The position numbers and the translations under genes were made by a program. The notes under the pieces were generated by a model, which made no database searches, had not been told where the DNA came from, and was given only the letters and a program-made list of their open reading frames with translations. A stretch of 64,000 nucleotides of DNA from Leishmania mexicana MHOM/GT/2001/U1103 (taxonomy: Eukaryota > Euglenozoa > Kinetoplastea > Trypanosomatida > Trypanosomatidae): contig NC_018329.1 in assembly GCF_000234665.1 (NCBI RefSeq), forward strand, positions 432,489 through 496,488. Direction: 5' to 3'. Positions 25,538 through 62,883 of this stretch are shown one piece after another (the stretch's first letter is position 1; the number at the start of each line of letters is the position of its first letter).

Positions 25538-27202
<1,665 letters not shown>

Positions 27203-28943: not shown

Positions 28944-30982
<2,039 letters not shown>

Positions 30983-35967: not shown

Positions 35968-38900
35968 TCAGTTGCCGAATCGGCGTACCTTCCAGCAGAG
36001 GGGAAGAGCCTCCAGGGTCTTCTCGAGGTTGCGCTCCAGCACCAACACCTCCGTGCCGCCCTTTATTAGGAAGGCAGCCTCAACGCACATGCGGCGCACC
36101 ATGTGCCAGCTATCACCCGTGGCGACGAGGAGACCACGGCCGAAGTAGCCAAGGTACTTGTATGAGGCGGCGGCTGGGGAGGTGGTCGCAGCACTGTTTC
36201 TCGACGAAAACGTTGCGACGCGGGCAATCCAGCGCACATCATGCGGCAGCGTCGCCGACAGTGGTGTGACGGCTGCCGAGGATGAGTGCAGCGTTGGGCC
36301 TACGAAGTACCGCTGCCGCAGCGTGGACAAGCCGACCAGGGCCTCGCAGGATGTTTCCTTCACCGGCGCTGACGAGGCTGACGCCTCCACTCTTGCCCTC
36401 TTCAGTGAACGCTCCGCGCCACCGTGACTGCCATCATTGGCCTTCTTGTTCAACACATCCTGCAGCAGTGGCAACTCCTGCGCCAGCTCGTACACGTCAT
36501 CCAGATCGGCGACCAGGGAGTCCGCGTCGGGGGTGCCATCTGCCATGAGACGCATGCGGCAGCTGCCACGGTGGCCGTAGATGACAAGCTCTTTGTCCTC
36601 TGCTGCGTCAGGTGCCGGGCCACTACTGCGACTCCCGGTAAGCGAAGCTGCAGCTGTTGGGCGGCACAGTACCCGGTAAGGTCGCAGCGAGTCGTCGGGG
36701 AGCCGCTTCCCGCGCACCTGCACGGGAGTGTGCACCGCCGGATACCCGTCAGCGAGAGTAACACACGTCACGGCGTCGTCGTAGAGGATGTAGAGTCGCT
36801 GCGACGTCGGCAACAAGGCCGATGCGTCAGCGGCCGTTTCTTCACTTGCGCCCGCGCTGGCCTCCTCTGCCGATCCCGCGGCAGCAGCAGTACCCGACCA
36901 GCAGACGTCGACCACACCGCTGCGCGCCGGCAGCTCCAGCACTGCCTCGAGCCTCGACACAGACATCGCCGCATGTGCACGCCACACCACCCTCAGCAGC
37001 CCAATGCGCTCCTCTGTGCTGAAGACAATGTAGTTCAGCTGGCGATCGCACCACAGGCCGGAAAGGTGGAAGCGGCCATCGAGACGGTGGCCGAAGAAGG
37101 GCACCCAGTGACGAGCGGCGCTGTCCATGTGGAAGGCCTCAATGGTGTCGAAGCGGGACTGCAAGAGGAGCTCGCGATCGATCGCGTAGGCAAACTGCTG
37201 CGTCGTGACCACCACGTACATCGCCGGCAACGTGAACAGCTGCGCTGTCGGCGCGTACATGATCGTGCCGTCGCGCGACGCAGACAAGATCAGTCGGCGA
37301 TGCGGCAACAGTGCCAGCTGGCTCGCCTCGTGATAGTGTGTGCGGCGTTTCACCTCAGCCGGATACCAGTCGCCCTGATCGTTGCAGCGGTAGCTCCGAA
37401 GGCTCTCGTGCCAACCGGACGCGTAGACAACAGCGTCGCCCTGCACCGCCAGCGTTGACACCGGTCCCTTGTGCTGCGAGAAGGTTTGGAAGACGTGTCC
37501 GTGCGCGGCATCGAGCAGCACGACATCGCCCATCGACGTCCCTACAACAACACAGGGACGCTGCGTCCCGCCGACCACAGCGCAGCTGAGTGCGACGCCC
37601 TTCGCTAGCTTTGTGGTCCAGAGAGACTCGTGCTCGGCCAAACCGCGTGCACGGCTGGGAGTGGCAGCCTCGTCGTCCTTCTCTGCGGCACTGGCGCCGG
37701 CAGAAGACCCTTGCGAAGACACGCCAGCAGGCAAGCGCCACGCATGTACGTTACCGGCGTCGTCGGAGCCAACCGCCATGCGCAGCGACAGAGACGTCGT
37801 CACAGACAAGGCGCGGTCGGCGCCGCTGATGCCGGGTACGACACGCACCAGCTCCAGCTGCGGGGCGGCGCCGTCTCGCTTACACGCGAGCCGCAGCTGC
37901 TGCCAGCTCCCGTCCGCCATGGCGGCGTAGATGCACGCAGCACTCACCGCGTGCAGAGCCCAAATGGCGCCACCGCTGCGCTGGTGCAGCGCAATGGGAA
38001 CGAGCAGCTCCGCGTCATAGACAACGATCTGACCGGACATCATGGAGGCGAGGAGGACATGGCGGGCCGCCGACGCTGCTTCGGACTTCAACGACGACAT
38101 CGGTTTCGGGACAGTCACGTAGGCCAGTCCTGATATGGTGCGGTGCGTCTGGCCGCCTGTGTGGCGGCGCTGCACAAACTGCGGGATGCCCTGGAAAAAC
38201 GTCACGTCGTAGCGCACGAGCGAACCGTTCTCACGCGCGACAGTGAGCTCCTTCTCCGAAGGATGCACCGCGAGGCAGAGAATGCCGCTCACGTCCGGCG
38301 CGATTACCTTTGACTCACACATGAAGCGCTCAACGAAGTGCGCCTCTGGTGAGGACGTTGCCGATGGGGACGTCGACAGGGCGGCGCGGGCACGGCTGCG
38401 ACGCACACTGCGGCTTCGTGCAGACTTCGAGGACTTGCCCGCCCCCTCAGCTGCAGCGCTAACGCTGGCGCTTACGTTCGCGGTACCCGCGGCGGCAGCC
38501 GATGCGGCTTTTCCTGCCGGCCCCGTAGACGCCAGCGTGGTGTCCGCAGAGGTGCTGCCGTTCGTAACGCCGCTCGCGCCTCGCTTCGCGGGGCTCGCAG
38601 ACTGCGGTGGCCGCAAGGACGTCGTCCTCTCGTGCCGGGCGGGCGATGGCGGCGGCGAAGGTGGGCACACTGGAGATGCGGAAGTGGTCGGCGCCGCCGC
38701 CGCCGTACCGGTGCTGTTCGCCTTCACCTTCGCAGCCTTCTCGCTGGGGCTCTGCTGGTTTAGGGAAGCTGAGGAGCGTTGTTGAGAGGCCCTGCTGGAG
38801 ACCGGTGCAGGGCTGTTGGCGGGGGCGGGTGGTATCGCCTGAGGCGAGGAGGCGAATGAGCTCTCACGCGCCTGCTTGACAGTTCTCTGGCTACGCTGCG

Positions 38901-39159
38901 CTTCAGGAGTGCAGAGCTGCGGCTGAGATACTTGCTGCTGCTGTTTCCACTGCGGAGTAGAGGAAGAGGAGGGCGCCGGGCTTGCGTTGCCAGCCACGGA
39001 GCTCTTCCTGATTGGGGTCGTCACCGACTGCGGCGGCGGAGACTGGTTAGTCGGCGGCTTTGCTGAGGAGGCAGCGGCACGTTTGGTGGGCGTCTGTTCC
39101 GCCGCTGGCGGTGCACCTGCTGCTGCTGCAGCGGAGCGCTTCGTCTTTCTTGGAGGCAT
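35968..39159 (-). CDS. UTP4: UTP4/cirhin-like WD40 protein (probable t-UTP/UTP-A component)
   Basis: A 1063-residue protein. Residues 1-275 are Ala/Ser/Pro/Lys-rich and basic, probably disordered. From about 285 a beta-propeller region follows with repeats such as GILCLAVHPSEKELTVARENGSLVRYDV, a GGAIWALHAV motif and a KGPVSTLAVQGDAVVYASGWHESLRSYR repeat. Further strands run to the C-terminus (two propellers plausible). The best clue is the extreme C-terminus: VLVLERNLEKTLEALP followed by a basic RRFGN end. It matches in layout the end of human UTP4/cirhin (a VAVERP...QLPPP...KKFGT ending, recalled from memory). UTP4 is part of the UTP-A complex, which starts small-subunit processome assembly on pre-rRNA in the nucleolus. 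The basic N-terminal extension would be lineage-specific. WD40 assignment is firm; the UTP4 identity is an inference. Confidence 0.75.
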   Translation of the reverse strand: MPPRKTKRSAAAAAGAPPAAEQTPTKRAAASSAKPPTNQSPPPQSVTTPIRKSSVAGNASPAPSSSSTPQWKQQQQVSQPQLCTPEAQRSQRTVKQARESSFASSPQAIPPAPANSPAPVSSRASQQRSSASLNQQSPSEKAAKVKANSTGTAAAAPTTSASPVCPPSPPPSPARHERTTSLRPPQSASPAKRGASGVTNGSTSADTTLASTGPAGKAASAAAAGTANVSASVSAAAEGAGKSSKSARSRSVRRSRARAALSTSPSATSSPEAHFVERFMCESKVIAPDVSGILCLAVHPSEKELTVARENGSLVRYDVTFFQGIPQFVQRRHTGGQTHRTISGLAYVTVPKPMSSLKSEAASAARHVLLASMMSGQIVVYDAELLVPIALHQRSGGAIWALHAVSAACIYAAMADGSWQQLRLACKRDGAAPQLELVRVVPGISGADRALSVTTSLSLRMAVGSDDAGNVHAWRLPAGVSSQGSSAGASAAEKDDEAATPSRARGLAEHESLWTTKLAKGVALSCAVVGGTQRPCVVVGTSMGDVVLLDAAHGHVFQTFSQHKGPVSTLAVQGDAVVYASGWHESLRSYRCNDQGDWYPAEVKRRTHYHEASQLALLPHRRLILSASRDGTIMYAPTAQLFTLPAMYVVVTTQQFAYAIDRELLLQSRFDTIEAFHMDSAARHWVPFFGHRLDGRFHLSGLWCDRQLNYIVFSTEERIGLLRVVWRAHAAMSVSRLEAVLELPARSGVVDVCWSGTAAAAGSAEEASAGASEETAADASALLPTSQRLYILYDDAVTCVTLADGYPAVHTPVQVRGKRLPDDSLRPYRVLCRPTAAASLTGSRSSGPAPDAAEDKELVIYGHRGSCRMRLMADGTPDADSLVADLDDVYELAQELPLLQDVLNKKANDGSHGGAERSLKRARVEASASSAPVKETSCEALVGLSTLRQRYFVGPTLHSSSAAVTPLSATLPHDVRWIARVATFSSRNSAATTSPAAASYKYLGYFGRGLLVATGDSWHMVRRMCVEAAFLIKGGTEVLVLERNLEKTLEALPLCWKVRRFGN

Positions 39160-49372: not shown

Positions 49373-52300
49373 TCAGTATAAGTTCGAGTCCTCATCGCAA
49401 TGGCAGTCGCATCCGTTCACGGGGCAGCGCCGGTGTGTACGGAACCAGCTTTGCAGGTGGTACGCATGCCCGCCGTGGTCACATGATGTGCACCACGCAA
49501 AGGCGGTGTCCACATCCTTGGAACCTAGCCGTACGGTCTCGAGGCAGACACAGCACCGCGTCGTCGTCGTGCTGCAGATGCTCAGCAGTGACCGGATAAG
49601 CTGCGTGCCAGTATGCTGCTCCCCGCACACGCAGGGTTTCGACTCTGGTGATCGCATGAAGGCTGATGCATACGGGGGTGTAACGGAGGTGACGTGTGTC
49701 GCGCCACCGCCGTAGGGACCTGCGAAGACCGACGGTGCAGACGGAGAGGACCAGGATGCTGCTGCTGAAAGACTGCGGCCAACACAGATACCACCACCAC
49801 CACTCGTCGTCCCGTCGCCAGCCCTAGTCACATGACGAGTCACGCACTGCTCAACTGACCTCGATACGAGATCCGCTGGAGAGGGAGAGGGAGAGGGAGA
49901 GGGAGAGGAGCAGCGCAGTCCCACCGCCTCCGTATCTTGCGGCGGGGTACGGTGAAGGGAACGACACCCTCTGCCGTAACGACCAGCACGTGCGTCTCCA
50001 GCCACTGAGGCGACGGCAGCAGCGGACGAAGAAGAAGCGGCGTCTGCGGTGCAGACGTTCATGGCTGCGGCGGCGGCGTCACGGGCCAGGAACGCGCCAC
50101 CGCGCAGCTGACGACACTCCACATCAAACGTCGTGCGGCGCACAAACGCCTGCTCGTCGTCAAGGAAAGAGCGGTACGCCGCGGCCCACCACACCCACGG
50201 CACATCCGCGTCTGCGTCGTCACTGTCGATGTCTGCGGCGTTGCCGAAGCCGTCACCGCTCCCATGACCGTTGCCCGCGGCTGCGTCGTTCGGTGAGACA
50301 CCATAGCGCAGCATGTGTCCAGGAGGAAGGCTATTGCTGACGCGAACAGCGTCCACAGAGTGGGGCAGCATACGGACGCCACTTATCGCCTCCCTTGGCG
50401 CCCGTGCTGGCGGCGGCAGAGCGCTGTTGAGCACGAGCCGTGCCGTGTGCGTCACACCCTCCTCCAGGGAGCCCCGCTCATCACGGGCTGAAGAGGAAGG
50501 CAGCTGACCAGAACTGCGCCTCCTGTGGCTAGACCGCAGGTACGAGAACGGGGAGCAGCCGTACACGCTGTCGCGTCCTTGGCCCTCGTTGTTGCCGTCA
50601 CCGTAGCCTCCAAAGCCGCCGTCCGCGCGGTAACTGTACAGCTGGTAGTCGGTAGAAATGGCAGAGAGCTTGTGGCTGCGCGCAGTTGGCGAGGTAACCG
50701 CCGTCCGCTCCGTCGCTGCCGCGGTGGCCGCCGCGGCGCTCACCTCGGCGTCCAGCAAGAAAGGAAAAGCGAGCGCCGCCGCCGTCGTAAGCACACCGAC
50801 ACGAGCGAACAGGCACGCGCCGAGCTGGAAGTCCCCGGTGCAGTCGACAATCTCCTGCATGGCGGCATAGGTGCGGAGGTGAATGCCATACTGGAGCAGC
50901 AACGCCTGAACCGGGTTGCACTCTCGTAGGAGGATGTCCTGCATGACATGAGTGAAGGCAGCTGTCGTGCCCGCCTCCATGACCACTGCCAAGGCGACGC
51001 GATCCCAGAAGGGCAAAGCCGAATGCCGGTAGAGGTGCGGGGGCAGTACCGTCCGTACGGAGGCCGCATCGTCGTGTAGCCCCTTCTCAGTCGCCGCCGC
51101 GACCTGTGACTGGTTGCGCGACGCTCCATCGCAGGGGCTGCACACGCAGTGGAAGACGACGAGCAACCACGGGGTGAGGGAGGCACGAAACGACGCACAC
51201 ACGCGGGGGTCGCTGTTACACACCATGGACTGGGCCTCCTCGGGGCGGCGAAGAAGGGTAGCCATGGCACCATAGCTCGGAGAGCGGCCGGCAAACCGGA
51301 GAAGCAGCTCCGCTGCCTCGGTGTGGCGCCCGTGCGTCACCTCCACCGCGACGGCGCGCTCGATGTCCACGTTGGTGCTATTCTCCCCAAGCACGGGTGT
51401 CGTGTCCGAAAGGGGGGGCGGCTGCACTATGCCTTGCCACGGCTGCCCGGCCTCTTCTGTCAGTGATGACGGCAGCCAACGCAGCACCTGCAACACCAAA
51501 AGGCAGCACAGGTCCTCATGGCACACGCACGCCTCCATCTTCGCTCGCCACACAGGCCCCAAACGCGCCTGCACCCTCGCCGCCGCCTCTCTCTGTAGAG
51601 CGCCACGCCCGGTAACAGGAGAGCTGTGCAGCAGCTCCATCAGCGATGGCACAGGTCCGGACAAAGCCACGAGCGAGACCGCCTCCAGCGTAACCACGTA
51701 CAAGAGCAGCATGGCCACATCCTCGCTGCCAAAACCGCCCACCTCCTTTACCGCGGCGAGGTTGGCCACGGACGAGAGGCCAAAGCCGGCAGCGTACCGC
51801 CGCCGCATGAGTCGCTCGATTCCCTGGATGGAGACAAGGTCGGCGGCGTACAGTGTGGGGCCGAGGCCGACGAACACGCTGCCGGCCTCGTGCCACGCGG
51901 ACACAGCCCGTACCTCGATCGGCACCGACGCCACCTCGCCCGCCGCGTTCATTACCGCGACACATGACACATTGCCGGGTCCTATTCGAAGGGCGTCGTG
52001 GAGGTCAACACGTTGATCAGCGGCGATGAGCGCCGCGCTTGCGATTTCGTTCTTGGTGCTCATCGCCGCGTAGCTGGGGACTGTGATGGCGGGTGCCCGC
52101 GGGTCGCGGCGGAGCCGTCGCCGCTCTCGCCGGCGCTGCTGATGCGACTGCTGCGTGGAGACGGAGGTTATCGCTAATGAGTAAAACCAGCGACTCAACG
52201 TGGCATCGGTGCCGCTGCTGTTGCCCGTCTCTCCAGTGTGTCGCCGATGGTAGCGCGTGCCGCCAATAGCGCCGGCATCCCCGCAAAACGGCTGCCGCAT

Positions 52301-55033
52301 CGCCGCCGCCAGCGCGTTCTCCTTCAGCAGCGGGCCGCCGTCGTCTGCGGCACAGCCACTCGCGCTCGCACATCCAATCACACCTGCTGCGCCATCGCCG
52401 GCCCTCATGCTCGCAGGGGAGTACAAGACGCCAAAGGCGCCACCGTGGCCTCTGCTAGCGCCAAACAGGTCCAGCTCGCCAACGTAGCGGTGGGCATCGC
52501 CACTGTGGCCGCGCTCGTGTTGTCGGCCACCACGCGGCATCGACACCACAGCCAGGCCAGCCCAGAGTGGATTCGCGGGCCGGCACAACACCCCCGCAAC
52601 GGCGCTTGCCTGAGATGGGGAGACGGAAGAGAAGCCGAGGCGACATCTCGGGTCCACAGCGGCGCCGAGCAGCGCCGTCTGCCGCTGACACCGCTCTGCA
52701 TCCCGCTGAAAGAGCGACTGCTCCGCTGTGGTGCTACCCATGCCGCTGCACCCGGCGATCGGCTCCGCTTTTGTGACGGCGGCTGCATTGTCTAGCGCGC
52801 TGAGGGACGACGTGGCGGCGGACACGTACTCGACGTTCACAAGGGAGTGCAACGGCAGACGAACGTTGTAGTCTTGCACCACCTGGTACGAGCTCGGGTG
52901 GGCGGCGGAGGCGGTGCTAGCGGCTGATGCCGGCACGCCCCGCTCACCGTCCGCTGCGCTGCCCTCTCTGTCCTCCTCTTCAGCCGCGTCGCCCACGTCA
53001 GAGCCTGCATCCCTGTCCATAATGCGAGCCGCGCGGACGATGTGCAGCGCCCCTTCCTCGAGGTTGCCAACGGCGAGCTCCAAATCAAAGCTGAACTTCC
53101 AGGAGAAGGTGTAGTACGCGCCGTACCGTGCCGCCGCGCCATCCATTCGGTGCTGCAGCACCTGTGTCAGCCGATGTGACGGCGTTGGGGGTTGGGCCCC
53201 GGTCCAGGTACGCGACAGCAGCCGCGGCGGGGGGTCCTTTCGGTACTCAGCAAACGTCAGCAAGCAGCCGGAGTGCAACGCCGAAGCAGCACCGACCTCT
53301 GGAATGGCGCCACCGCCGCCGTAGAGCCCCAAAGGTGACGTTGCACCGATGCCGCTCGAGAAGGCCTCAGCGACGTTCCCCCCGCTCATCAACGCTGCGG
53401 GACTCGCGTCATGCCACCCGACGTGCCGCTCCGGCTTCGGCGCCCCCTGGGCTGCTGCCGAGGGCGTGGCTCCGGAAGGAGAAGAGAGCTGATGCGGGCC
53501 GCTCCTCGGGTCATCTCGTGAGCCCTGCAGCGGCACGAGTGGAAAAGTCGTCGGGCCGCGCTTGCCACTCGTGACGCCACGCTGTGGACTTCCCACACAA
53601 GTGCCGATAGCGCCGTCCACCTGGCCTACCGATGGCCTCACCACGCCACTGTTGTGGCTGTCCGTAAGGTGCAAGGTCGGGCTGTTGTCCCGTCGCCTCC
53701 GCGCCGCCGCCGCTGCCGTCGAGGTCGTCTGCTCCTCGGCTCCGGTCCAGACGGATTGCGACAGCACACCTACAATGGGCAGGAAAGGGTGACAATATAG
53801 GAAGGCCGCGCTCGGCGTGCTCAGTTGCAGCTCGCACAGCGGCGCCTCCAGCTGGTCGGCGTCAAAGAGAAAGATGCTGCCGCGCTCGCTCCCAACGGCG
53901 ACCGTGCCGTTGGCGGCGAAGTAGTCGCTGCACACAAGTGCGCCAGCCTCCGCAAGAACGCACGAGGCGACCAGCTCAGCCCGCAGGCCGGCTATCTGGC
54001 CTCCGACAGCGACGCGAGCGACGTGGCTGGTGAGGGAGTCGCGGTTCAGGGCCTGGTAGGCAAAGGCGCCAGGTGTCACTGACGCACCGTATGGGATCTC
54101 CTCCGCCGGGTCCAGCAGCTCCTTCCGGTATGCGGCAGAGATAGATACCTCGTACCACTCCACCCACCCTGAGGTGTAGCCCACCAGCACGAGAGGCTTG
54201 TTGCGCATCCATGTAATCGTGGAAGGAGCGTCTCTGCGATACAGCCCACGGACGACGCCTCTGCCTCTGTGCGGCGACATTGACGCGGGGGCGGCTGCGT
54301 TGGAGGAGGGATCCCTACCCTGGAACGACGAGGTTGACCCGCTCGTCTTCGCCGCAGCGGCGGCACCGCCAGTGAAGGAAGGGAAAGAGAAAAGACCGCC
54401 CCCGCCGCCTCCGCCCCTCGATGGGGATGGCAGCGTCAGAGAGATGGCGGGCGGCGAGGGAGGCCGACGGGCGACCACGCCGCTGTCCGAGGTGGAGCAA
54501 CGCCTCAGGATCGAGGACGACTCCGCATGCTGACGCTGCAGCTGCTCACGCAGACTCTGCGGGTCCTTTCCTCGCACGTAAAGCAGCAGATCCTCCTGAA
54601 GCACGGCGAGGGCCAATAAGCCGTTGGCGGCACCGATAAACGCCATATCGGTGCCAAAGACGGTACGATTTGCCATGCTGAAGAAGCACTGAGTTCCTTG
54701 GAAGGGGCTTGGCAGGGTCAGCGTGCGCTGGATGTGCATGCGTGTTTCGGTGGTGAAGTGCACGTCGTGCTGGGTAACACCATGTCCCGCGCTGTGGCTG
54801 GTGGAAGAGGAGGAAGCCGTGAAGGGCTGCTGGCCGGACCACTGCGATGGCGCACTGCCTCCCACAGCCGCGTCTCCTCCTGTGACAGGGGTGTGCAGTT
54901 CTGCCGCGTCCCCAATGCCGTTCGCCGCCACGCGCCGGTAGCGCGCGCAGTCCACCGTGAAGTACGTTAGAACGCCGTTCGTCAACGACCCGAACGCGTT
55001 GTGGGAGTCCGGCTGACACGAGAAGTACTTCAT
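49373..55033 (-). CDS. Mio-type SEACAT/GATOR2-like protein B (beta-propeller, alpha-solenoid, C-terminal zinc finger)
   Basis: An 1886-residue protein. The N-terminal half (about 1-830) has WD40-like strands such as TWMRNKPLVLVGYTSGWVEWYEV and NGTVAVGSERGSIFLFDADQL, broken by long Gly/Ser inserts. The solenoid contains AAELLLRF (about 1233), LPFWDRVALAVV (about 1339) and MQEIVDCTGDFQLGACLF (1392-1409). A conserved helix follows with WAAAYRSFLDD and FVRRTTFDV (about 1612-1645). These line up in order with the VRDRVAFAC, YVDRTGDVQT, YRNLLDAW and FDI motifs I recall from human MIOS. The C-terminus has CxxC (1827-1830), WCTSCDHGGHAYHLQSWF (1847-1864) and CPVNGCDCHC (1870-1879), the HGGH zinc finger of SEACAT subunits with Mio spacing. 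The upstream zinc ribbon is reduced to CVCGE. Start 55033 replaces an upstream ATG because MKYFSC opens the first propeller strand. Vps8/Vps41-type proteins were considered and fit less well. Confidence 0.75.
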   Translation of the reverse strand: MKYFSCQPDSHNAFGSLTNGVLTYFTVDCARYRRVAANGIGDAAELHTPVTGGDAAVGGSAPSQWSGQQPFTASSSSTSHSAGHGVTQHDVHFTTETRMHIQRTLTLPSPFQGTQCFFSMANRTVFGTDMAFIGAANGLLALAVLQEDLLLYVRGKDPQSLREQLQRQHAESSSILRRCSTSDSGVVARRPPSPPAISLTLPSPSRGGGGGGGLFSFPSFTGGAAAAAKTSGSTSSFQGRDPSSNAAAPASMSPHRGRGVVRGLYRRDAPSTITWMRNKPLVLVGYTSGWVEWYEVSISAAYRKELLDPAEEIPYGASVTPGAFAYQALNRDSLTSHVARVAVGGQIAGLRAELVASCVLAEAGALVCSDYFAANGTVAVGSERGSIFLFDADQLEAPLCELQLSTPSAAFLYCHPFLPIVGVLSQSVWTGAEEQTTSTAAAAARRRRDNSPTLHLTDSHNSGVVRPSVGQVDGAIGTCVGSPQRGVTSGKRGPTTFPLVPLQGSRDDPRSGPHQLSSPSGATPSAAAQGAPKPERHVGWHDASPAALMSGGNVAEAFSSGIGATSPLGLYGGGGAIPEVGAASALHSGCLLTFAEYRKDPPPRLLSRTWTGAQPPTPSHRLTQVLQHRMDGAAARYGAYYTFSWKFSFDLELAVGNLEEGALHIVRAARIMDRDAGSDVGDAAEEEDREGSAADGERGVPASAASTASAAHPSSYQVVQDYNVRLPLHSLVNVEYVSAATSSLSALDNAAAVTKAEPIAGCSGMGSTTAEQSLFQRDAERCQRQTALLGAAVDPRCRLGFSSVSPSQASAVAGVLCRPANPLWAGLAVVSMPRGGRQHERGHSGDAHRYVGELDLFGASRGHGGAFGVLYSPASMRAGDGAAGVIGCASASGCAADDGGPLLKENALAAAMRQPFCGDAGAIGGTRYHRRHTGETGNSSGTDATLSRWFYSLAITSVSTQQSHQQRRRERRRLRRDPRAPAITVPSYAAMSTKNEIASAALIAADQRVDLHDALRIGPGNVSCVAVMNAAGEVASVPIEVRAVSAWHEAGSVFVGLGPTLYAADLVSIQGIERLMRRRYAAGFGLSSVANLAAVKEVGGFGSEDVAMLLLYVVTLEAVSLVALSGPVPSLMELLHSSPVTGRGALQREAAARVQARLGPVWRAKMEACVCHEDLCCLLVLQVLRWLPSSLTEEAGQPWQGIVQPPPLSDTTPVLGENSTNVDIERAVAVEVTHGRHTEAAELLLRFAGRSPSYGAMATLLRRPEEAQSMVCNSDPRVCASFRASLTPWLLVVFHCVCSPCDGASRNQSQVAAATEKGLHDDAASVRTVLPPHLYRHSALPFWDRVALAVVMEAGTTAAFTHVMQDILLRECNPVQALLLQYGIHLRTYAAMQEIVDCTGDFQLGACLFARVGVLTTAAALAFPFLLDAEVSAAAATAAATERTAVTSPTARSHKLSAISTDYQLYSYRADGGFGGYGDGNNEGQGRDSVYGCSPFSYLRSSHRRRSSGQLPSSSARDERGSLEEGVTHTARLVLNSALPPPARAPREAISGVRMLPHSVDAVRVSNSLPPGHMLRYGVSPNDAAAGNGHGSGDGFGNAADIDSDDADADVPWVWWAAAYRSFLDDEQAFVRRTTFDVECRQLRGGAFLARDAAAAAMNVCTADAASSSSAAAVASVAGDARAGRYGRGCRSLHRTPPQDTEAVGLRCSSPSPSPSPSPADLVSRSVEQCVTRHVTRAGDGTTSGGGGICVGRSLSAAASWSSPSAPSVFAGPYGGGATHVTSVTPPYASAFMRSPESKPCVCGEQHTGTQLIRSLLSICSTTTTRCCVCLETVRLGSKDVDTAFAWCTSCDHGGHAYHLQSWFRTHRRCPVNGCDCHCDEDSNLY
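49877..49909. repeat. In-frame (GGAGAG)n hexamer run inside Mio-type gene B
   Basis: About five copies of GGAGAG on the plus strand encode alternating Ser-Pro residues in the linker before the zinc finger. It is in phase with the codons, so length change keeps the frame. Confidence 0.85.
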
Positions 55034-55998
55034 GGGAGGAAGGGAAGAGGTGGGGGAGAGGGGGGAGGCGTTGATGATGATCGCCACAAACAGGGAGATA
55101 CGACGCAAAGGGAGGAGGCGTGATGAGATGAAGGCGGCAATGTGAATGGGCCGCTTCTGGAGGGAAGGGCGAGGGGGGAGGGGGGGGCGGTTGCACTGTG
55201 GTCGAGTCCCCTCTCCGTCCTCCCCTTTTTATCGATACACAAGCCGAGGCGTATGTGCTGCGTGTAGATGATGCATGCCGGCAGAAGGTAAAAGGCGGGT
55301 GCGAGCGCGTGCAGAAAGGGATCTGTGTGAGGAAGTTGCGTGGGTCACATGCTTGAAGCAGTTTGGCGCGCGGCGAAAGCGAAGAGCCACATGCACGCGC
55401 TGGCACCCATTACAAGTGTCGAGGGGGAGAGGAGAGCATGATACACACACACGCGCGCGCGCAGAAGAGGAGGAGAGAGAGAGACGTCAGGTGCCGGGGC
55501 CGTGTGTGAATGCCAACGCTGCAGCCCATCTTCCGTGCGTGCCTGTCTCTATATGTGTGTGTGTGTGCACTGCGCCTTGGAGGCGCCAAGGGAAGGGGGA
55601 GAAGGGAGTGCAGAAGCCGCCAGATCCGTTACAAGGCGTATCACGGCAGCCTGACCTTCTCTTCACTGCCTCTCCCCTCGTTCTGCGGTGCGCAACACTG
55701 CCACACCACCTGCTGCCACAGCGCGTTGATTGCCCTCTTGCCGCTTCCATCGACCATCGTTTTCCTTCTTGACGTCGATAGTTGTGCGGAAAGCTGCCGT
55801 GATGATATAGGGGAGGGGGGAATGGGGTGGTGAAGCGGGGCGGCGCTCGGGGACGGTTCGAAGCACAAGCACGCACGCGCACGCGCTCTCACACACGGGG
55901 GGAGAGGGGGGAGGTTCTTAGACGAAAGGGGACGTCAACAGAATGAAAGTCGTGAGAGAGAGGGAGGGGGGCAAGAAGACGATCAGCGGCGGCCTGTG
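55034..55998. other. Spacer between the two Mio-type genes
   Basis: About 0.97 kb. A G/A-rich block immediately right of 55033 (to about 55070) and another at 55155-55190 are pyrimidine tracts on the transcribed strand and candidate splice signals for gene B. A short (GT)n run is at 55554-55566. No gene seen. The spacer includes the 3'UTR of gene A. Confidence 0.6.
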
Positions 55999-58900
55999 CT
56001 ACGAGAGATGGACGCTGTCGCAGCAGTGGCAGGGGCAGTTCTCGACGGGGCATTTTGTGTGCTTGCTGAACCACTCCCGCAGGTGGCACCAGTGGCCCCC
56101 GTGCAGACACACGCTGCACCATGCGAAGAAGCGCTCCGGCGGCAGCTCCGTCGCGCGGTGCTCCATACGCTCACCGCACACGGTGCACATCGGCGACTGC
56201 CACTGTCGGCACTCCGGGTTGCCGCACGGAATGAGTTGTTTGCGGGTCATGTTCGTCGAGGTCATGGACGAGATGGAGCTCTTGCTCGGCGCCGTCGCGT
56301 GCATCGCCTGACCGCAGTTGCACCGCAGCTCCACCGCTCGGTAGAGCGCTTCATTAGCTCCTGGACTGGCCCCACCAGCAGTCCCGGCCGCCTCGCGCAA
56401 CGAGCGGTCGCGGTCGGTTGTCGCGGTTGCGGTGGTCTGGGCAAATCGGTTCAGCGTGCGCTCCATCATCATGGCTGTTTGGGTCGACATCATCGCCGCA
56501 GCGGAGGCGGCACCAGGCCCCACGCCGATGTCACTTCCGAGTGCCCCCAGCGCGCCAGGGAAACCACTTGGTCGAGGCACGTCAGCACTCGAGAGAGGCC
56601 CCGCAGGGCCTCCTGGAGGGGCGCCGGTGGCGGCTCCAACAACACCGCCGCCACGTGTGGTGCCTGCGCCAACCATGCCCGGGGAAGAGCCACCGCCTCC
56701 GCCAATGATGGAGCCTCCCGGGATGCCCGCCACACCGCCACCGGCACCGGCGCTATGCGAGTTGCTGCTGCCGGAGATGGCGCTGCCACCCCCGTGCTTG
56801 TCCGCCTCTTCACGTGCTTTGAGAAGTTTCACGATATGCAGATCGTGAAGACTGCGCCACATGGCGAGTCCCTGGTCGTTAAGCAAGCGCCGGTACGCGT
56901 CACGCCACATGCGGACAGTTGGCGAGAGCACATTGCTGAACGCCGCTGCGTAACTCAGGGGCGTTTGCACGTCGCCGCTCTCGTCCACGTAGCGCTGAAG
57001 TGCGCCGCAGTCGGTGCTGACGCCCTCCACCACCGTCACGAGCAGCAGCGAGCACCGGTAGATGGGGGCGAAGCGATCCACAGAGGCGGTGGATGCGGCG
57101 GCAGCGAGCACGAAGGTGTCACTAGGATCACTGTAGTGGGAATCGACGCTGCCGTGGGCAGGGAGGGAGGCGCCGGACGAGCTTGGGAAGCGGCCGCTGA
57201 GAGCCGCCGGCGACACGGCAACGTCTACGGAAGAGCTCTGCGCAGGCGATCGAGGTAGGCCGGACAGCGATGCGCGCTTTGAATCCACGCGTCTCTGCTG
57301 CCGCGCGCGGATCCCGAGTGGCGACAACGTTGAGGACGGCGACCCGTACATGCTGTCGGCGACCGCCTGTTGAGCTGCTGTGCTGGCGGTGGCGGTGGTA
57401 GAGTAATCACGGTACTGCTGCTGCACCAGAGCCTGCAAAACCTCCATCACGTTGGCGATATGGCCGCTGTGGTACCGCGAGGGCAAGAGCAGCGCCGTGG
57501 AAAGGGCCACCTTGTCAGAGAGGACCAGGCGCGGATACCTCTCCAGCAGGCGTAGCACCACTGCCTTCTGCTGCGGTAACGTAAAGAGGTCATCGAAGCG
57601 GCTGACTGGCTCCGTCGCCTCAGCGGTGCACGTGGCCGTGCTCGATGTGGCCTCGTCGCTGCCCCTGCCCGCGCTCCCAGCATCCGCCGGCAGAATCCTA
57701 TCCCCTGCTGCCGCCGCTCCGCACGACTGCTGATGCATCACAAGCTCCATGTATGTGAGCATCAAATGAATCCAGAAAGTTACCCCAGGACAGTCGTCTG
57801 CTGCCAGGCTCATCACAGCTGTCTGCCGGCCGCGCGCTGCAGACAGGGTCAAGGCGATACTGGGGTACTGCGCGTTGTGCGTGCCGTACAGCGCCAGCAA
57901 CTCCGCAGCCTCCTCGAGACGGTCCAGCAACACGAGCACGGCCACGCGCCGCTCCAGCGCTTCCTGCAGGCTGCGTTGGCCTATGCCGTCTCCCTGCACG
58001 AAAAATCTCTCCGCCGGGTGCCGGGGGTGGTGGTCGCCGCGTGGAGGAGGAGACCGGGTCGCCTGCGCCCCACCGGCTCTCGCCGCGGCAGCGCTGGCAC
58101 CCGTCCCCTCACGCTCGATAGTGTGCTCAGATGGTGGATCAACGAGAAACACTGCAGGTGGCGTCGTCCAACCCATGGACTCCAGCACGAGCTGCCGCAA
58201 CATCCCAATCGCCACGGGGTACGTCGGAAGGTATGCGGCGCTGTCCCCTGCAGCACCACCGGCCGCCCCAGGGGAGCCTGCTCCACCCCTGAGAACTGAT
58301 GAAGCCGCACGGCTCACGCCAGCGTTGATCGCGGGCCCGGGAAGGTGCGCTGGTGATGGTGGGCGGCCCGCACGAATGCCTGCCGCGGCGGCGCTGAACG
58401 GGTGCAGTGAAAACCCCGAAGGCCCCTTGTGCCGCTCCATGGCGCTCGACAAACCCGCCAGCAGAGGGGCCGGCAGTCCGCGTGCCCCTATGGGGCTCAT
58501 GATGGCGTAACCGCTCGGAGGCGCAAAACCCGCCGCCTCGCCAGCGGCGGTTGCATTGGTCAAAGCGAGCTGGTGGTGGTGGTGACTGAGCGGAAACTGC
58601 GAGGAGAGCCGAGTGTCACTCAGCCCCAGCTGTTGCCGCAACTCACACTCCGACACCAGCAGCTCCAGCAGCCCTGGCACGGCTCGCTTCAGGCCCACAA
58701 CTAGAGAGGGGGCCGACGCTGCCAGCCCCGCCGCCTGGTCGGTGCCACGAGACTTTGGCGCCACCATCACAGCAGTGGGGAATAGCAGCTGTGCAGCACA
58801 GCAGCCATAGAGGAAGGTGGCGTACGCCTCCCGATCTAGGCCTTCGCGCAGGAGCACGGTCAAGTTGCGCACCGGGTCATATGAAAAGCCGCTGCGCAGC

Positions 58901-61900
58901 CGTCTCCATAGATGCCGCGTACGATCAAGGCGGTGGAATTCGCAGAAGCTCATTTCCTGTGGAATGGACGTTGCTGCTGGTGTTGCTGCTGTTGGTGCGG
59001 ACTGAGCGGCACCTCGGCCAGCCGCGGATGTGGTGCCTGTGTATGGCTGCTGCATCGGTTCTGCAGGGGTGGACCGGCTGTGAGGCGACGCAGCGACAGG
59101 TTCGCGCAAGGACGATCGACGACCGAGTAGCTCCTTCTCCTGGAGGGCGCCGCTGATGCCGCTGCCATGCAAACCTTTAGGACCTTTAGGAGCAGCTGCA
59201 CCGCCACTGCCCACCACAGAAGACGCAGCCTCCCTCGAAAGTCCGGCGCGCGGGCTGCCTGAGCTTGGCGAGCCCTCGTTGTCACCCACTCCGGCGGTCC
59301 CTGCAGCCCCCATTCTCAGCAGGCCATGAGCTGTAGAGGAAGCAGCGCCGAAGCCAGACTGCTGCTCGTTCGCGTTGGCGCCGGCGAGAACGCAGTGCTC
59401 GTAGTCACCGGTGGAGGCAGCGCCAGCACGGGCCCGCGGCGTGTCCCGTTCACCCTCTTCTTCGTCGTCTTCGTCCTCCACCTCGTCCAAGAGCCCCAGA
59501 CCGATCAAATCCATAGGTCGCCCCTTTTGTCTGGCCGCCGCCGCCGCAACGCCACCACGACCGCCCCCGCCACCGCGGGCAGCTGCAGCACAAGCCCTGC
59601 CGCCGCCAGTGGCAGAGCTGCCAGTACTTGACAGCTGAGCTCCACCAGTGGTGCTGTCGCCTGATACGTGAGGTTTGTTTGTAGAGGTAACGGTTGCCGC
59701 GCCGGCGACACCTGCGCGCCCGCCCAGCAAGCCCATTCCGGCTTTGGATGCGGATCCAAAAGAGGTGGGAGTGGGGCAAGAGGGCACCGCCATACCAGGA
59801 GCTGCGCTGGCGGCGGCGGCTTGACACTCCAGCCGGTCGAGCACAGCCTCCTCGTAAGCATAGATCGTTGTATTGTACGCCGTGGAGGTGTGTGTGAGGA
59901 AAGCGTTGGGACCGGCGCCGACCAGTGCCGTGCTGCTGCTGAGGCTGGTGACCGTGCTGCCACCTGGGTTGTACACCTGCGTATATAGCTCCCCATTCTT
60001 TGCATTGAGTAGCAGCAGCTGTGGCAAGTCTGTTCGGCAGCCACGCGCCATTGCGTTGTCGTCCACCTCGCCGTCACAGTCGTCTGTGGGACGAAGGCCG
60101 CTAGTAGCACCGTGAGAGGCGTGCAAGAGCTCAGAGTGGTGAGGTCCGGCAGCGGACATTCCGCCTCCGGTGCTGCGGTGCACCGACGCGAGGCCCGGGA
60201 TGCTGCCGGAGGCGACCGCCCTCATCGACTCCGAGAGCGGGTGGCACACACACCCCACCGCTGCGGCAGGCACGCGGGACGGCAACCGGCACTTAAGCGC
60301 GGACTGCGCCTTCACACTGACATGCACCAAAGCGTTGCTCCCGTCAGTGATGGAGGGCATGGTTGTGCCAGTGCCGTCGCCGGAGAAGCCGGAGCGAGTG
60401 CTGCAGGAGCCGTCCGAGAAGTCCTCCTCGGCCTCGGCCTCCGTCCCACTGCAGCCACTGTTCACAGGGTTGCTGTTAATCACACCCCAACGATCCGCCT
60501 CCAGTTCTCCGCCGCTCGGCGAGCGGTGGTGCGGAAGGCCGCCACTTGGGGCGCGACGTTGGCGACTGCGGCCAGCCCCGAAACCTCCCCCGGCACCACC
60601 GGAGCCAAAGCCGCTCGGGCTCAGGTGGGGGTTAGCTGCGCTGCCATAGTGGTGTGACGTCACGACGACAGGGCCGCTTGGAGCAGCGCGCGATGGTGCA
60701 AGCGCCTTGAAGGTATGCGCGCGCAGACCGCCGTCGCGCGTCGTGCCAAGCACCACCCCCGCCTCTGTCGCACTCCAGCACAGGGAGGTATATCCCGCGC
60801 GCGCGTATACCTGACACGAAACCGGCCGCGTCGCCATGCGCACATCCCAGAGCTGCACAATGTCCCGCATCTGTGACGCACCTACCGTGGCGACGTACCG
60901 CTGCGAGGGGTGGCACGCCACCTGCTCGGCACTGCAAAGGACACATGGGGCAGCGTTGTCTCTGGTGCGCGCGTAGACAGGGACGCCGAACACCTCGGGC
61001 GGTGCGCCGAGGTACGTGACGCCGTCGTGAGAGGCGCGCAGATCGAGCAGCTCTGCGTAGAAGCCGAGCCCATCGAGACGCCGCGCGGCCACAACAGTCA
61101 GGTGGGACTGTGGCATCCAATCCAGCGCTGTCACGGGGCCCAGCAGTTGCTTCTGCTGAACTACACTGTAGCTGAGGTGGTCCGCGCCCGCGTATGGCAC
61201 CAGACGGGTGCCACCGACACTGCTGCCGCCGAGCGCGCTGGCCCCTGCGGCGATGCCGCCTACCGCGGGCACAAAAAACCGCTCGTTGGTGTCGGCGTTA
61301 CTCGTGCTGACGCTCGTGGTAGTGGAGCTACAGCACCTGCCCTCCACCGAGCCCAGCACGTACTCGACATCCAGTAGCTGCACCGCGCCGCTCTGCCGGC
61401 CCAGGGCGAGTATGGCCGAGTTGCGCGGATCCCATCCGGACGCGGTGACAACGCGGTCATGACGAGATACTGGCCTACGCGTCGGGAGCCCCACCACAGC
61501 CGCCGGGGCCGCCCCTCCGTACACGTCAAGTCCGTCGGTGACGCATGGACCGGCAGCGCCGGTTAAACTAGGGCGGCGGCGGCTGTTTGCCACACCACCG
61601 CCTCCGGTGCCAGCAGCCACCGCCTCGCCTGCTCTGTTCTCATCGCCGCCTTCGTCTCCGTACCCATCTGACACCATTAACGGGGCGTTCTGCAGTGAGC
61701 AGTCCCCTGCCGTGTTCGGCGGTGTGGAAGTCTGCTCACTACTGGCAAAGCTGTTCGCGGGGAAGGTAGCGTTCACCGGCGCGCCAAAGCCTTCGGAAAA
61801 CGGCCGCGGCGGGTGCCGTGCCGATGACACTACAGTGCCACCGCCACTTCCACCACCGGGCGGCCCGCCGTATCCGTCGGTGCCGCGCCGTCGCATCGGC

Positions 61901-62883
61901 AGCGACATGGACACCCGAAGAGGGGACAGTGTCGTGGCATCGCTGCGGCCAATCCAGCTAAGCCCCTCCGCATTCGCCACGAAGAACAGCACGCAATCTG
62001 TGGCGCAGCTGAGAGAGAGAGCAGTGGGAGCAGGGGGAACGGCCGCGGCCGAGGCGGTACTGCTGGTGCGAGCACCACCACCGCCGCCACCACCAGCGCG
62101 CCCGGCTAGTGCTTGCAGGCTGCCGGCGTGGTATCCACTATACCCCGCTGCACTGTTCCCGCTCACGCGACCTGACGACTGCCCCGGGCCGTACTCCTCT
62201 GCAAAGGTCGAGGTAGCCCCGGCGGTGGCTACCGTTGGCGTCGCCCATTCCTGCGGCGACGCGTTTGCTCCACCATGCGAGCTGAAGAGTCGCCCCTCTC
62301 CAGCGCTGACACCGCCGCCACAGGGGACTGTATGAAAAGGGACAAGCGGGGCGCCCCAGTGGTACGCGGAGTTGACGTCCTGCTTCTGCTGCTCTTGTTG
62401 CAGCCAGTCGTCAGAAGCCGCAGAAGTCGCCGACGCGTACCCCACGCTGGTGCGAGGGGGTGGTGGAAAGCGCACGCGTGATGCTGACATCGCGAACGGA
62501 GCGGGCAGCCCATAAGCGTCATACCCGCCCGCCCGCACATCTATGCCGCTAGCCGTCGCAGCTGCCACAGAGCCGGTGCCTCTGCCAACAGCGGAGAGGC
62601 GGCACAGCATGCGCAGGTATTCACGAGGCACACATGCCGGTGCACCAGCAAAGTACGGCATTAGGTCCGGCGGCACGGGCTTGACAGACCTGGTAGTCGT
62701 GGAGGCGCCAACGTCATCGAAACCGTCACACACGACGCTGCCCAGCATACCAGACCCTCCCGCTGCCACCGCACCACTAGAAGCGAACGGGAAGACACGA
62801 TCGAGAACATAGTACAGCCGCACCTGGCTCGACGTGGCGGTGGCGTAGATGCCGGTATCACCAGGCTGCTTGCTCAGCAGCAT
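55999..62883 (-). CDS. MIOS: Mio (MIOS/SEA4) homologue, SEACAT/GATOR2 subunit A
   Basis: A 2294-residue protein. The N-terminal third carries WD40 strands: SAILALGRQSGAVQLLDVE, ARRLDGLGFYAELLDLR and VATVGASQMRDIVQLWDVR followed by GYTSLCWS (about 590-700). Very long Gly/Ser/Ala inserts separate domains (about 720-1300). The solenoid (about 1310-2020) contains LDREAYATFLYGC, LDRLEEAAELLALYG and LQRYVDESGDVQTPL (about 1962-1976), then MWRDAYRRLLNDQ (1991-2003). YVDxxGDVQT is an almost exact match to human MIOS (YVDRTGDVQT, from memory). The C-terminus has CNCG (2188), CGNPECRQWQSPMCTVCG, then WCSVCLHGGHWCHLREWF and CPVENCPCHC, the full zinc-ribbon plus HGGH finger. In animals and fungi Mio is part of GATOR2/SEACAT, which relieves GATOR1 inhibition of TORC1 at lysosome or vacuole. 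The start MLLSKQPG was preferred to a Cys/Leu-rich upstream extension. It is three times the length of human MIOS because of the inserts. Confidence 0.88.
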   Translation of the reverse strand: MLLSKQPGDTGIYATATSSQVRLYYVLDRVFPFASSGAVAAGGSGMLGSVVCDGFDDVGASTTTRSVKPVPPDLMPYFAGAPACVPREYLRMLCRLSAVGRGTGSVAAATASGIDVRAGGYDAYGLPAPFAMSASRVRFPPPPRTSVGYASATSAASDDWLQQEQQKQDVNSAYHWGAPLVPFHTVPCGGGVSAGEGRLFSSHGGANASPQEWATPTVATAGATSTFAEEYGPGQSSGRVSGNSAAGYSGYHAGSLQALAGRAGGGGGGGARTSSTASAAAVPPAPTALSLSCATDCVLFFVANAEGLSWIGRSDATTLSPLRVSMSLPMRRRGTDGYGGPPGGGSGGGTVVSSARHPPRPFSEGFGAPVNATFPANSFASSEQTSTPPNTAGDCSLQNAPLMVSDGYGDEGGDENRAGEAVAAGTGGGGVANSRRRPSLTGAAGPCVTDGLDVYGGAAPAAVVGLPTRRPVSRHDRVVTASGWDPRNSAILALGRQSGAVQLLDVEYVLGSVEGRCCSSTTTSVSTSNADTNERFFVPAVGGIAAGASALGGSSVGGTRLVPYAGADHLSYSVVQQKQLLGPVTALDWMPQSHLTVVAARRLDGLGFYAELLDLRASHDGVTYLGAPPEVFGVPVYARTRDNAAPCVLCSAEQVACHPSQRYVATVGASQMRDIVQLWDVRMATRPVSCQVYARAGYTSLCWSATEAGVVLGTTRDGGLRAHTFKALAPSRAAPSGPVVVTSHHYGSAANPHLSPSGFGSGGAGGGFGAGRSRQRRAPSGGLPHHRSPSGGELEADRWGVINSNPVNSGCSGTEAEAEEDFSDGSCSTRSGFSGDGTGTTMPSITDGSNALVHVSVKAQSALKCRLPSRVPAAAVGCVCHPLSESMRAVASGSIPGLASVHRSTGGGMSAAGPHHSELLHASHGATSGLRPTDDCDGEVDDNAMARGCRTDLPQLLLLNAKNGELYTQVYNPGGSTVTSLSSSTALVGAGPNAFLTHTSTAYNTTIYAYEEAVLDRLECQAAAASAAPGMAVPSCPTPTSFGSASKAGMGLLGGRAGVAGAATVTSTNKPHVSGDSTTGGAQLSSTGSSATGGGRACAAAARGGGGGRGGVAAAAARQKGRPMDLIGLGLLDEVEDEDDEEEGERDTPRARAGAASTGDYEHCVLAGANANEQQSGFGAASSTAHGLLRMGAAGTAGVGDNEGSPSSGSPRAGLSREAASSVVGSGGAAAPKGPKGLHGSGISGALQEKELLGRRSSLREPVAASPHSRSTPAEPMQQPYTGTTSAAGRGAAQSAPTAATPAATSIPQEMSFCEFHRLDRTRHLWRRLRSGFSYDPVRNLTVLLREGLDREAYATFLYGCCAAQLLFPTAVMVAPKSRGTDQAAGLAASAPSLVVGLKRAVPGLLELLVSECELRQQLGLSDTRLSSQFPLSHHHHQLALTNATAAGEAAGFAPPSGYAIMSPIGARGLPAPLLAGLSSAMERHKGPSGFSLHPFSAAAAGIRAGRPPSPAHLPGPAINAGVSRAASSVLRGGAGSPGAAGGAAGDSAAYLPTYPVAIGMLRQLVLESMGWTTPPAVFLVDPPSEHTIEREGTGASAAAARAGGAQATRSPPPRGDHHPRHPAERFFVQGDGIGQRSLQEALERRVAVLVLLDRLEEAAELLALYGTHNAQYPSIALTLSAARGRQTAVMSLAADDCPGVTFWIHLMLTYMELVMHQQSCGAAAAGDRILPADAGSAGRGSDEATSSTATCTAEATEPVSRFDDLFTLPQQKAVVLRLLERYPRLVLSDKVALSTALLLPSRYHSGHIANVMEVLQALVQQQYRDYSTTATASTAAQQAVADSMYGSPSSTLSPLGIRARQQRRVDSKRASLSGLPRSPAQSSSVDVAVSPAALSGRFPSSSGASLPAHGSVDSHYSDPSDTFVLAAAASTASVDRFAPIYRCSLLLVTVVEGVSTDCGALQRYVDESGDVQTPLSYAAAFSNVLSPTVRMWRDAYRRLLNDQGLAMWRSLHDLHIVKLLKAREEADKHGGGSAISGSSNSHSAGAGGGVAGIPGGSIIGGGGGSSPGMVGAGTTRGGGVVGAATGAPPGGPAGPLSSADVPRPSGFPGALGALGSDIGVGPGAASAAAMMSTQTAMMMERTLNRFAQTTATATTDRDRSLREAAGTAGGASPGANEALYRAVELRCNCGQAMHATAPSKSSISSMTSTNMTRKQLIPCGNPECRQWQSPMCTVCGERMEHRATELPPERFFAWCSVCLHGGHWCHLREWFSKHTKCPVENCPCHCCDSVHLS

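Follow-up and report, generated by a model that had tools for sequence, protein, structure and literature searches.

A pair of adjacent genes in Leishmania mexicana best explained as anciently diverged Mios subunits of GATOR2

The yeast complex contains four copies of Sea4 (Mios), two of Sea2 (WDR24) and two of Sea3 (WDR59) (PMC9646525). Sea2 and Sea3 are RING-paired, each with one copy of Sea4, the solenoids join neighbouring Sea4 copies and a lobe of Npr3 sits in the Sea4 propeller (PMC9646525). As half of the Sea4 RINGs pair with Sea2 and half with Sea3, a single Sea4 gene serves two non-equivalent places. For Leishmania donovani, Table 1 of PMC7901767 names a single MIOS entry obtained by BLASTP (LdCL_250018400), a WDR24 entry with 69 residues matched (LdCL_200015700) and a WDR59 entry (LdCL_300009300). 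The same source reports RagA to be essential in promastigotes of L. donovani and RagC to be required for surviving in mouse liver (PMC7901767). An earlier, sequence-only reading of the locus described here called nutrient sensing in these parasites poorly described. Broadly this stands, amino-acid sensing upstream of TOR in Leishmania and trypanosomes being largely unmapped, with the qualification that a paper of 2021 gives one homologue each of MIOS and WDR24 for L. donovani (PMC7901767).

The window, i.e. the whole stretch of 64,000 nucleotides that was analysed, corresponds to C25:432489-496488 on chromosome 25 of L. mexicana. Two genes, A and B, are adjacent in this window, both on the minus strand, and each frame is open from ATG to stop (Table 1). 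The solenoid region of A carries the motifs DKVAL, YVDESGDVQT and AYRRLLN, and that of B the motifs DRVAL, IVDCTGDFQL and AYRSFLD. An antisense ORF of 416 codons in the 3' part of A (56008-57258, plus strand) was rejected as a gene by judgement, as it looks like a by-product of the G+C-rich coding sequence. Elsewhere in the window, all on the minus strand, are two gene copies of the ATP synthase alpha/beta family (25538-27115 and 29204-30547, the second without a match to the C-terminal domain), an ORF of the C-5 cytosine DNA methylase family (PF00145; 32472-35015) and, as the third long ORF downstream of B, a WD40-repeat protein (35968-39159).

Table 1. Coordinates of genes A and B and their predicted parts in the window, and of genes C and D elsewhere in the genome
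Feature	Position	Strand	Extent	Reading and basis
Gene A, whole	55999..62883	-	2294 aa	Probable Mios-type GATOR2 subunit; long low-complexity linkers
Gene A, best-conserved stretch of the propeller	60703..61458	-	aa 476-727	Conserved blocks and weak profile matches
Gene A, alpha-solenoid region with linkers	56806..58953	-	aa 1311-2026	Conserved blocks, profile comparisons
Gene A, C-terminal zinc finger (C4) and RING	56020..56334	-	aa 2184-2288	Pfam, PDB, patterns
Gene B, whole	49373..55033	-	1886 aa	Probable Mios-type GATOR2 subunit
Gene B, N-terminal beta-propeller region with inserts	52799..55024	-	aa 4-745	Conserved blocks, fold of the T. cruzi ortholog
Gene B, three-strand segment between propeller and solenoid	51836..51970	-	about aa 1022-1066	Predicted, putative position of the domain-invasion motif
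Gene B, alpha-solenoid region with long insert	50102..51835	-	aa 1067-1644	Profiles and ortholog model
Gene B, C-terminal RING	49388..49561	-	aa 1825-1882	Complete first zinc finger (C4) missing
Gene C	C25:694468-697509 (L026:1469-4510)	-	1013 aa	WDR59-type finger
Gene D	L040:939-8867, on C20		2642 aa	C-terminus matches WDR24

Judged from sequence and profile comparisons, A and B are very probably both Mios proteins. In the protein scan, B is over the curated cut-off of PF17034 (zinc_ribbon_16) and A under it, while in the genome search both are over; general RING profiles stay under cut-off on both proteins. Searched against the PDB as single sequences, A and B match MIOS first and Sea4 next, with WDR24 and WDR59 chains weaker. 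The best MIOS alignment of A consists of three ordered stretches, a WD repeat (2.0 bits), the YVDxxGDVQT region (4.8 bits) and the finger (18.8 bits), of which the finger alone is strong. With a family profile of 16 rows, A matches MIOS at 2e-15, 9dx1_F (labelled WDR24) at 0.051 and 7uhy_D (WDR59) at 0.12. The family profile of B, with 18 rows, matches MIOS at 2e-11, 9dx1_F at 1.3e-4, 7uhy_D at 3.6e-4 and 7uhy_C (WDR24) at 0.89. The entries 7uhy and 9lvj were preferred because some chain labels of 9dx0-9dx2 do not fit the matched segment, e.g., a 9dx chain named 'SEC13 homolog' that matches the WDR59-type finger.

Profile-profile comparison links A and B over 445 columns of solenoid and finger (99.9%, E 1.3e-32), A and MIOS over 175 columns (99.1%, E 4e-19) and B and MIOS over 220 columns (99.5%, E 5e-23), the MIOS profile holding two sequences only (human pieces and P0031) and P0004 being excluded from alignment A1 and from the A profile. 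This bears out the claim of the sequence-only reading that both genes are Mios-type, as the profile of each matches that of the other and that of MIOS in solenoid and zinc finger. With gene D (one sequence) and gene C (15 rows), the similarity of A and B is confined to the RING (34-52 columns, E 8e-5 to 1.5e-8). Reversed decoys, six in all, reached E 0.09-0.33. BLASTP connects A and B at 7e-15 in the finger and 5e-4 in the solenoid. The RING pattern C..C.HGGH...C....C.C.C is found in all family proteins (A 17/17, B 18/18), with the P or V of CPV substituted in a few members. The C4 pattern before the RING is present in 17/17 proteins of the A family and in 0/18 of the B family, where a CxCG remnant occurs in Leishmania. 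By the PDB searches with family profiles and the decoy-controlled profile comparison, in which WDR24 was represented by gene D alone, the solenoid of both genes resembles that of MIOS more than that of WDR24 or WDR59. Neither protein has the CPxGC spacing of WDR24, to which their matches are confined to the RING, nor the CPxGCxCxC spacing of WDR59, and RWD is not among the Pfam families found on them at E <= 1. The best explanation is that A and B are two Mios subunits, long diverged, of a GATOR2 (SEACAT) that acts in trypanosomatids upstream of the Rag GTPases and TOR.

For the N-terminal WD40 propeller, the model of the Trypanosoma cruzi ortholog of B gives a good predicted fold match, while the evidence for A is weaker. 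The A propeller weakly matches the MIOS propeller (E 8.5e-5, probability 60%), the B propeller has no significant match to the MIOS propeller profile (E 0.02), and the propellers of A and B show no likeness to each other in profile comparison (E 0.4). The model of the T. cruzi B ortholog has a mean pLDDT of 48.7, with the RING below 41. In Foldseek, its top 19 PDB matches are chains of GATOR2/SEA entries, led by 7uhy_B and 7uhy_A. The TM-scores by query of the GATOR2 matches are just 0.17-0.19 and the rmsd is large, so the matches depend on local similarity. VIA gives propeller matches for residues 1-523 of the same ortholog; no GATOR chain is among the 50 matches listed, which is uninformative. 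In the ortholog model, the strands at residues 626-667 (pLDDT about 25-36) form a candidate for the domain-invasion motif, the blade by which Mios/Sea4 closes Seh1 or Sec13. When compared with the corresponding segment of MIOS, the three-strand segment of B is the best placed, without reaching significance (E 0.51 and 0.12), and no such blade was seen in A.

Seven named species have both genes: L. mexicana, L. major, L. braziliensis, L. martiniquensis, Porcisia hertigi, Leptomonas seymouri and L. pyrrhocoris. The locus tags of A and B follow each other directly in L. martiniquensis (05329/05328) and Porcisia (04626/04625) and differ by two in L. pyrrhocoris (05392/05390); in L. seymouri the genes lie on separate contigs, from which adjacency is not readable. 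In Phytomonas, A was found in isolate Hart1 and B in isolate EM1. Orthologs of B were found in T. cruzi, T. conorhini and T. grayi, which agrees with the earlier suggestion that the duplication is old. A was not found in Trypanosoma in a weak search, the query being only about 300 residues of A. In a tree of 34 of the 37 rows over 100 columns (P0010, P0014 and P0028 lack conserved blocks and were omitted), A and B form separate groups with support of 86 and 83, respectively, and the two MIOS sequences stand apart with 100; with two outgroup rows, the root is uninformative. Since the B group (support 83) includes the Trypanosoma sequences, the A/B split should be older than the parting of Trypanosoma and Leishmania.

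Searching the DNA for CxxCxHGGH gave four sites genome-wide, namely A, B, gene C and one chance site. The last, C33:840882, was rejected as a fourth HGGH gene, its frame being 72 codons. A looser pattern gave 15 sites, and the 11 beyond A, B, gene C and C33 were rejected as having no RING-like C-terminus in the stretch inspected; one of these 11 is a zinc-knuckle protein. Gene D was found through the PF17120 genome search, as the fifth row and under cut-off (E 0.05). Its C-terminus matches human WDR24 (7uhy_C) at E 4e-10 over 69 residues of C4 finger and RING, and on this sequence evidence gene D is the WDR24 of the L. mexicana genome. The proposal that one of the two Mios copies had taken the place of a missing WDR24 was rejected in view of this gene. 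In the mexicana group, chromosome 20 belongs to C20, and LdCL_200015700 is probably the gene D ortholog, given the equal match length and the chromosome.

Gene C ends in CARCGHGGH...CPKGCDCRC, spaced as in WDR59. Its PDB match to WDR59 (7uhy_D) is weak at 0.017, with MIOS at 0.18, and the family profile places WDR59 (0.013) close to an unrelated chain, 4gyc_B (0.02). The Mio ribbon PF17034 scores 1.3e-5 on gene C, under cut-off and better than PF17120, and in the family alignment PF17034 is found in 16/17 rows and PF17120 in 7/17, one row probably being foreign. This is P0054 (L. tarentolae, 18% to the first row), which is in alignment A3 and out of A6 and is probably no relative of gene C. 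The better score of PF17034 counts against a WDR59 identity. By eye and set beside WDR59, an FPxxYP stretch after a helix and strands, in a helix-strands-helix order, looks RWD-like (model pLDDT 38); Pfam RWD has no match on gene C or its family, and none of its seven genome-wide matches is at gene C. For a relative of gene C, the AlphaFold model is poor, with a mean pLDDT of 38. No propeller is recognised in the gene C frame, nor by eye in the upstream ORFs of 282 and 852 aa. Relatives occur in Leishmania, Porcisia, Novymonas and Leptomonas, and in L. martiniquensis, Porcisia and L. pyrrhocoris they stand 62-70 locus numbers away from A and B. LdCL_300009300, being on chromosome 30, is not gene C. 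The best reading, not a settled one, is that gene C is 'WDR59-like', its membership being weak. The companion proposal, replacement of WDR59 by one Mios copy, is made unlikely by the WDR59-type finger of gene C and is less firmly ruled out than that for WDR24, as the match is weak.

A Sec13 gene is present at C31:18679, with SEC13 as best PDB match (1e-57). A second WD40 gene near C31:210101 (L042:1393-2586, plus strand) scores higher against SEH1 (9e-19) than against CIAO1 (2e-15) or SEC13 (2e-10), with five repeat-rich WD40 constructs outscoring SEH1 in the same PDB search. Conversely, the human SEH1 piece finds the Sec13 gene first (2e-20) and the C31:210101 gene second (2e-9), and the latter is considered a candidate Seh1. 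Excavates lack Seh1 according to a review (PMC8421043), and the table of 2021 assigns SEC13 and SEH1L to one and the same L. donovani gene (PMC7901767). IML1/DEPDC5 was found on C7 (3e-18). Two strong Rag matches are located on C13 and C20 (4e-79 and 2e-75) and were named RagA and RagC because their chromosomes agree with that table (PMC7901767). Profiles of NPRL2 and NPRL3 gave nothing over cut-off in the genome; as the control genomes were prokaryotic, this is no proof of absence. Both are likewise missing from the L. donovani table (PMC7901767). A 1938-codon frame on C22 has a weak NPR2-profile match at C22:384370-384627 (plus strand, L048; 19.9 bits vs a cut-off of 27.5) and is possibly a divergent NPRL2. 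A 2017 survey credits GATOR1 to Trypanosoma species (PMC5745459), and a Sestrin with motifs resembling those that bind GATOR2 is reported for T. brucei (PMC11429811).

As the usual partner genes are apparently present, A and B may fill two seats of one complex, a division of places to which, from the analysis as a whole, we give a little less than an even chance. Each would take one kind of Mios place in one GATOR2, one Mios probably with WDR24 and the other with WDR59; which goes with which is not readable from the sequence. The Sea4-Sea4 solenoid contact of yeast may then be an A-B contact in trypanosomatids, the two RING pairings would be partner-specific, and just one of the two propellers, A or B, would be needed for docking GATOR1. 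A and B differ at the expected partner sites, the C4 finger being in A and not in B and the propellers being unalike, and specialisation of the two is plausible. A bolder version, in which A and B occupy the two Mios places of a re-engineered cage as obligate partners, one of WDR24 and the other of a propeller-less WDR59, alongside a remodelled GATOR1 whose NPRL2 and NPRL3 have disappeared or become difficult to recognise, is regarded as somewhat unlikely. In that version, an asymmetry that yeast builds from one gene would be hard-wired in two.

Alternatively, A and B might each occupy all four places of a GATOR2 of its own, used, e.g., according to life stage or condition. Both have retained the solenoid and RING of Mios, and mRNA stability can differ between adjoining trypanosomatid genes; the long divergence, the asymmetric C4 finger and the unalike propellers suit different places better, which makes separate complexes unlikely. 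It is a degree less probable that only A, with its complete C-terminal domain, is the Mios of GATOR2 and that B has moved to another membrane-coat or ubiquitin-ligase task. Duplicates commonly evolve asymmetrically and the C4 finger is missing in B; however, GATOR2/SEA chains are the best fold matches of the B ortholog, and B is retained in Trypanosoma. That one copy took over from a lost WDR24 or WDR59 appears very improbable with both gene D (WDR24) and gene C (WDR59-type finger) present, and with A and B resembling these in the RING only. The weakness of gene C, which is weakly WDR59-related, propeller-less in its frame and better matched by PF17034 than by PF17120, leaves some room for WDR59, or part of its task, having been lost or shifted to A or B. 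HOPS/CORVET subunits share the same broad layout of propeller, solenoid and RING. An identity of A and B as such subunits (Vps8, Vps41), or as ordinary RING ubiquitin ligases, is nevertheless barely credible: general RING profiles remain under cut-off, and Vps chains are neither in the PDB lists for A and B nor among the best 50 of 446 Foldseek matches.

In UniRef, some B orthologs are named 'GATOR2 complex protein MIO zinc-...', while A orthologs are hypothetical or uncharacterised. LdCL_250018400 is probably the ortholog of B or A, based on its chromosome (25) and an 82-residue match. Among the literature matches listed, in which subscription journals are thinly covered, no title or abstract opening mentions two Mios genes in trypanosomatids. 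For L. donovani, the 2021 table has a single homologue each of MIOS and WDR24 (PMC7901767) and no second Mios gene. A gene set of two Mios, a WDR24, a candidate with a WDR59-type finger, Sec13 and a candidate Seh1 makes the complex directly testable. The A/B pair also lends itself naturally to testing whether Mios places of the two kinds differ in task, a question that is hard to approach where one Mios gene serves both.

Compared to known systems, A and B resemble human MIOS (7uhy_A, 9lvj_A) in having a propeller, a solenoid with DRVA, YVDxTGDVQT and W..xYR.LL motifs and a RING with CPVxxCxCxC, while the C4 finger is common to MIOS and A. Unlike human MIOS, they are two genes, encoding proteins 2 to 2.6 times as long as the 875-residue human chain through their linkers, B is without the C4 finger, and the propellers of both are barely detectable by sequence. 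WDR24/Sea2 shares the general layout and the RING, with the match to A and B restricted to the RING. WDR59/Sea3 also shares the layout and the RING, its finger reading CPxGCxCxC vs CPVxxCxCxC in A and B. Sea4 of the yeast SEACAT (8adl) has the same layout as A and B and is matched by both genes, but there one gene fills the four places (PMC9646525), which in trypanosomatids two genes could share.
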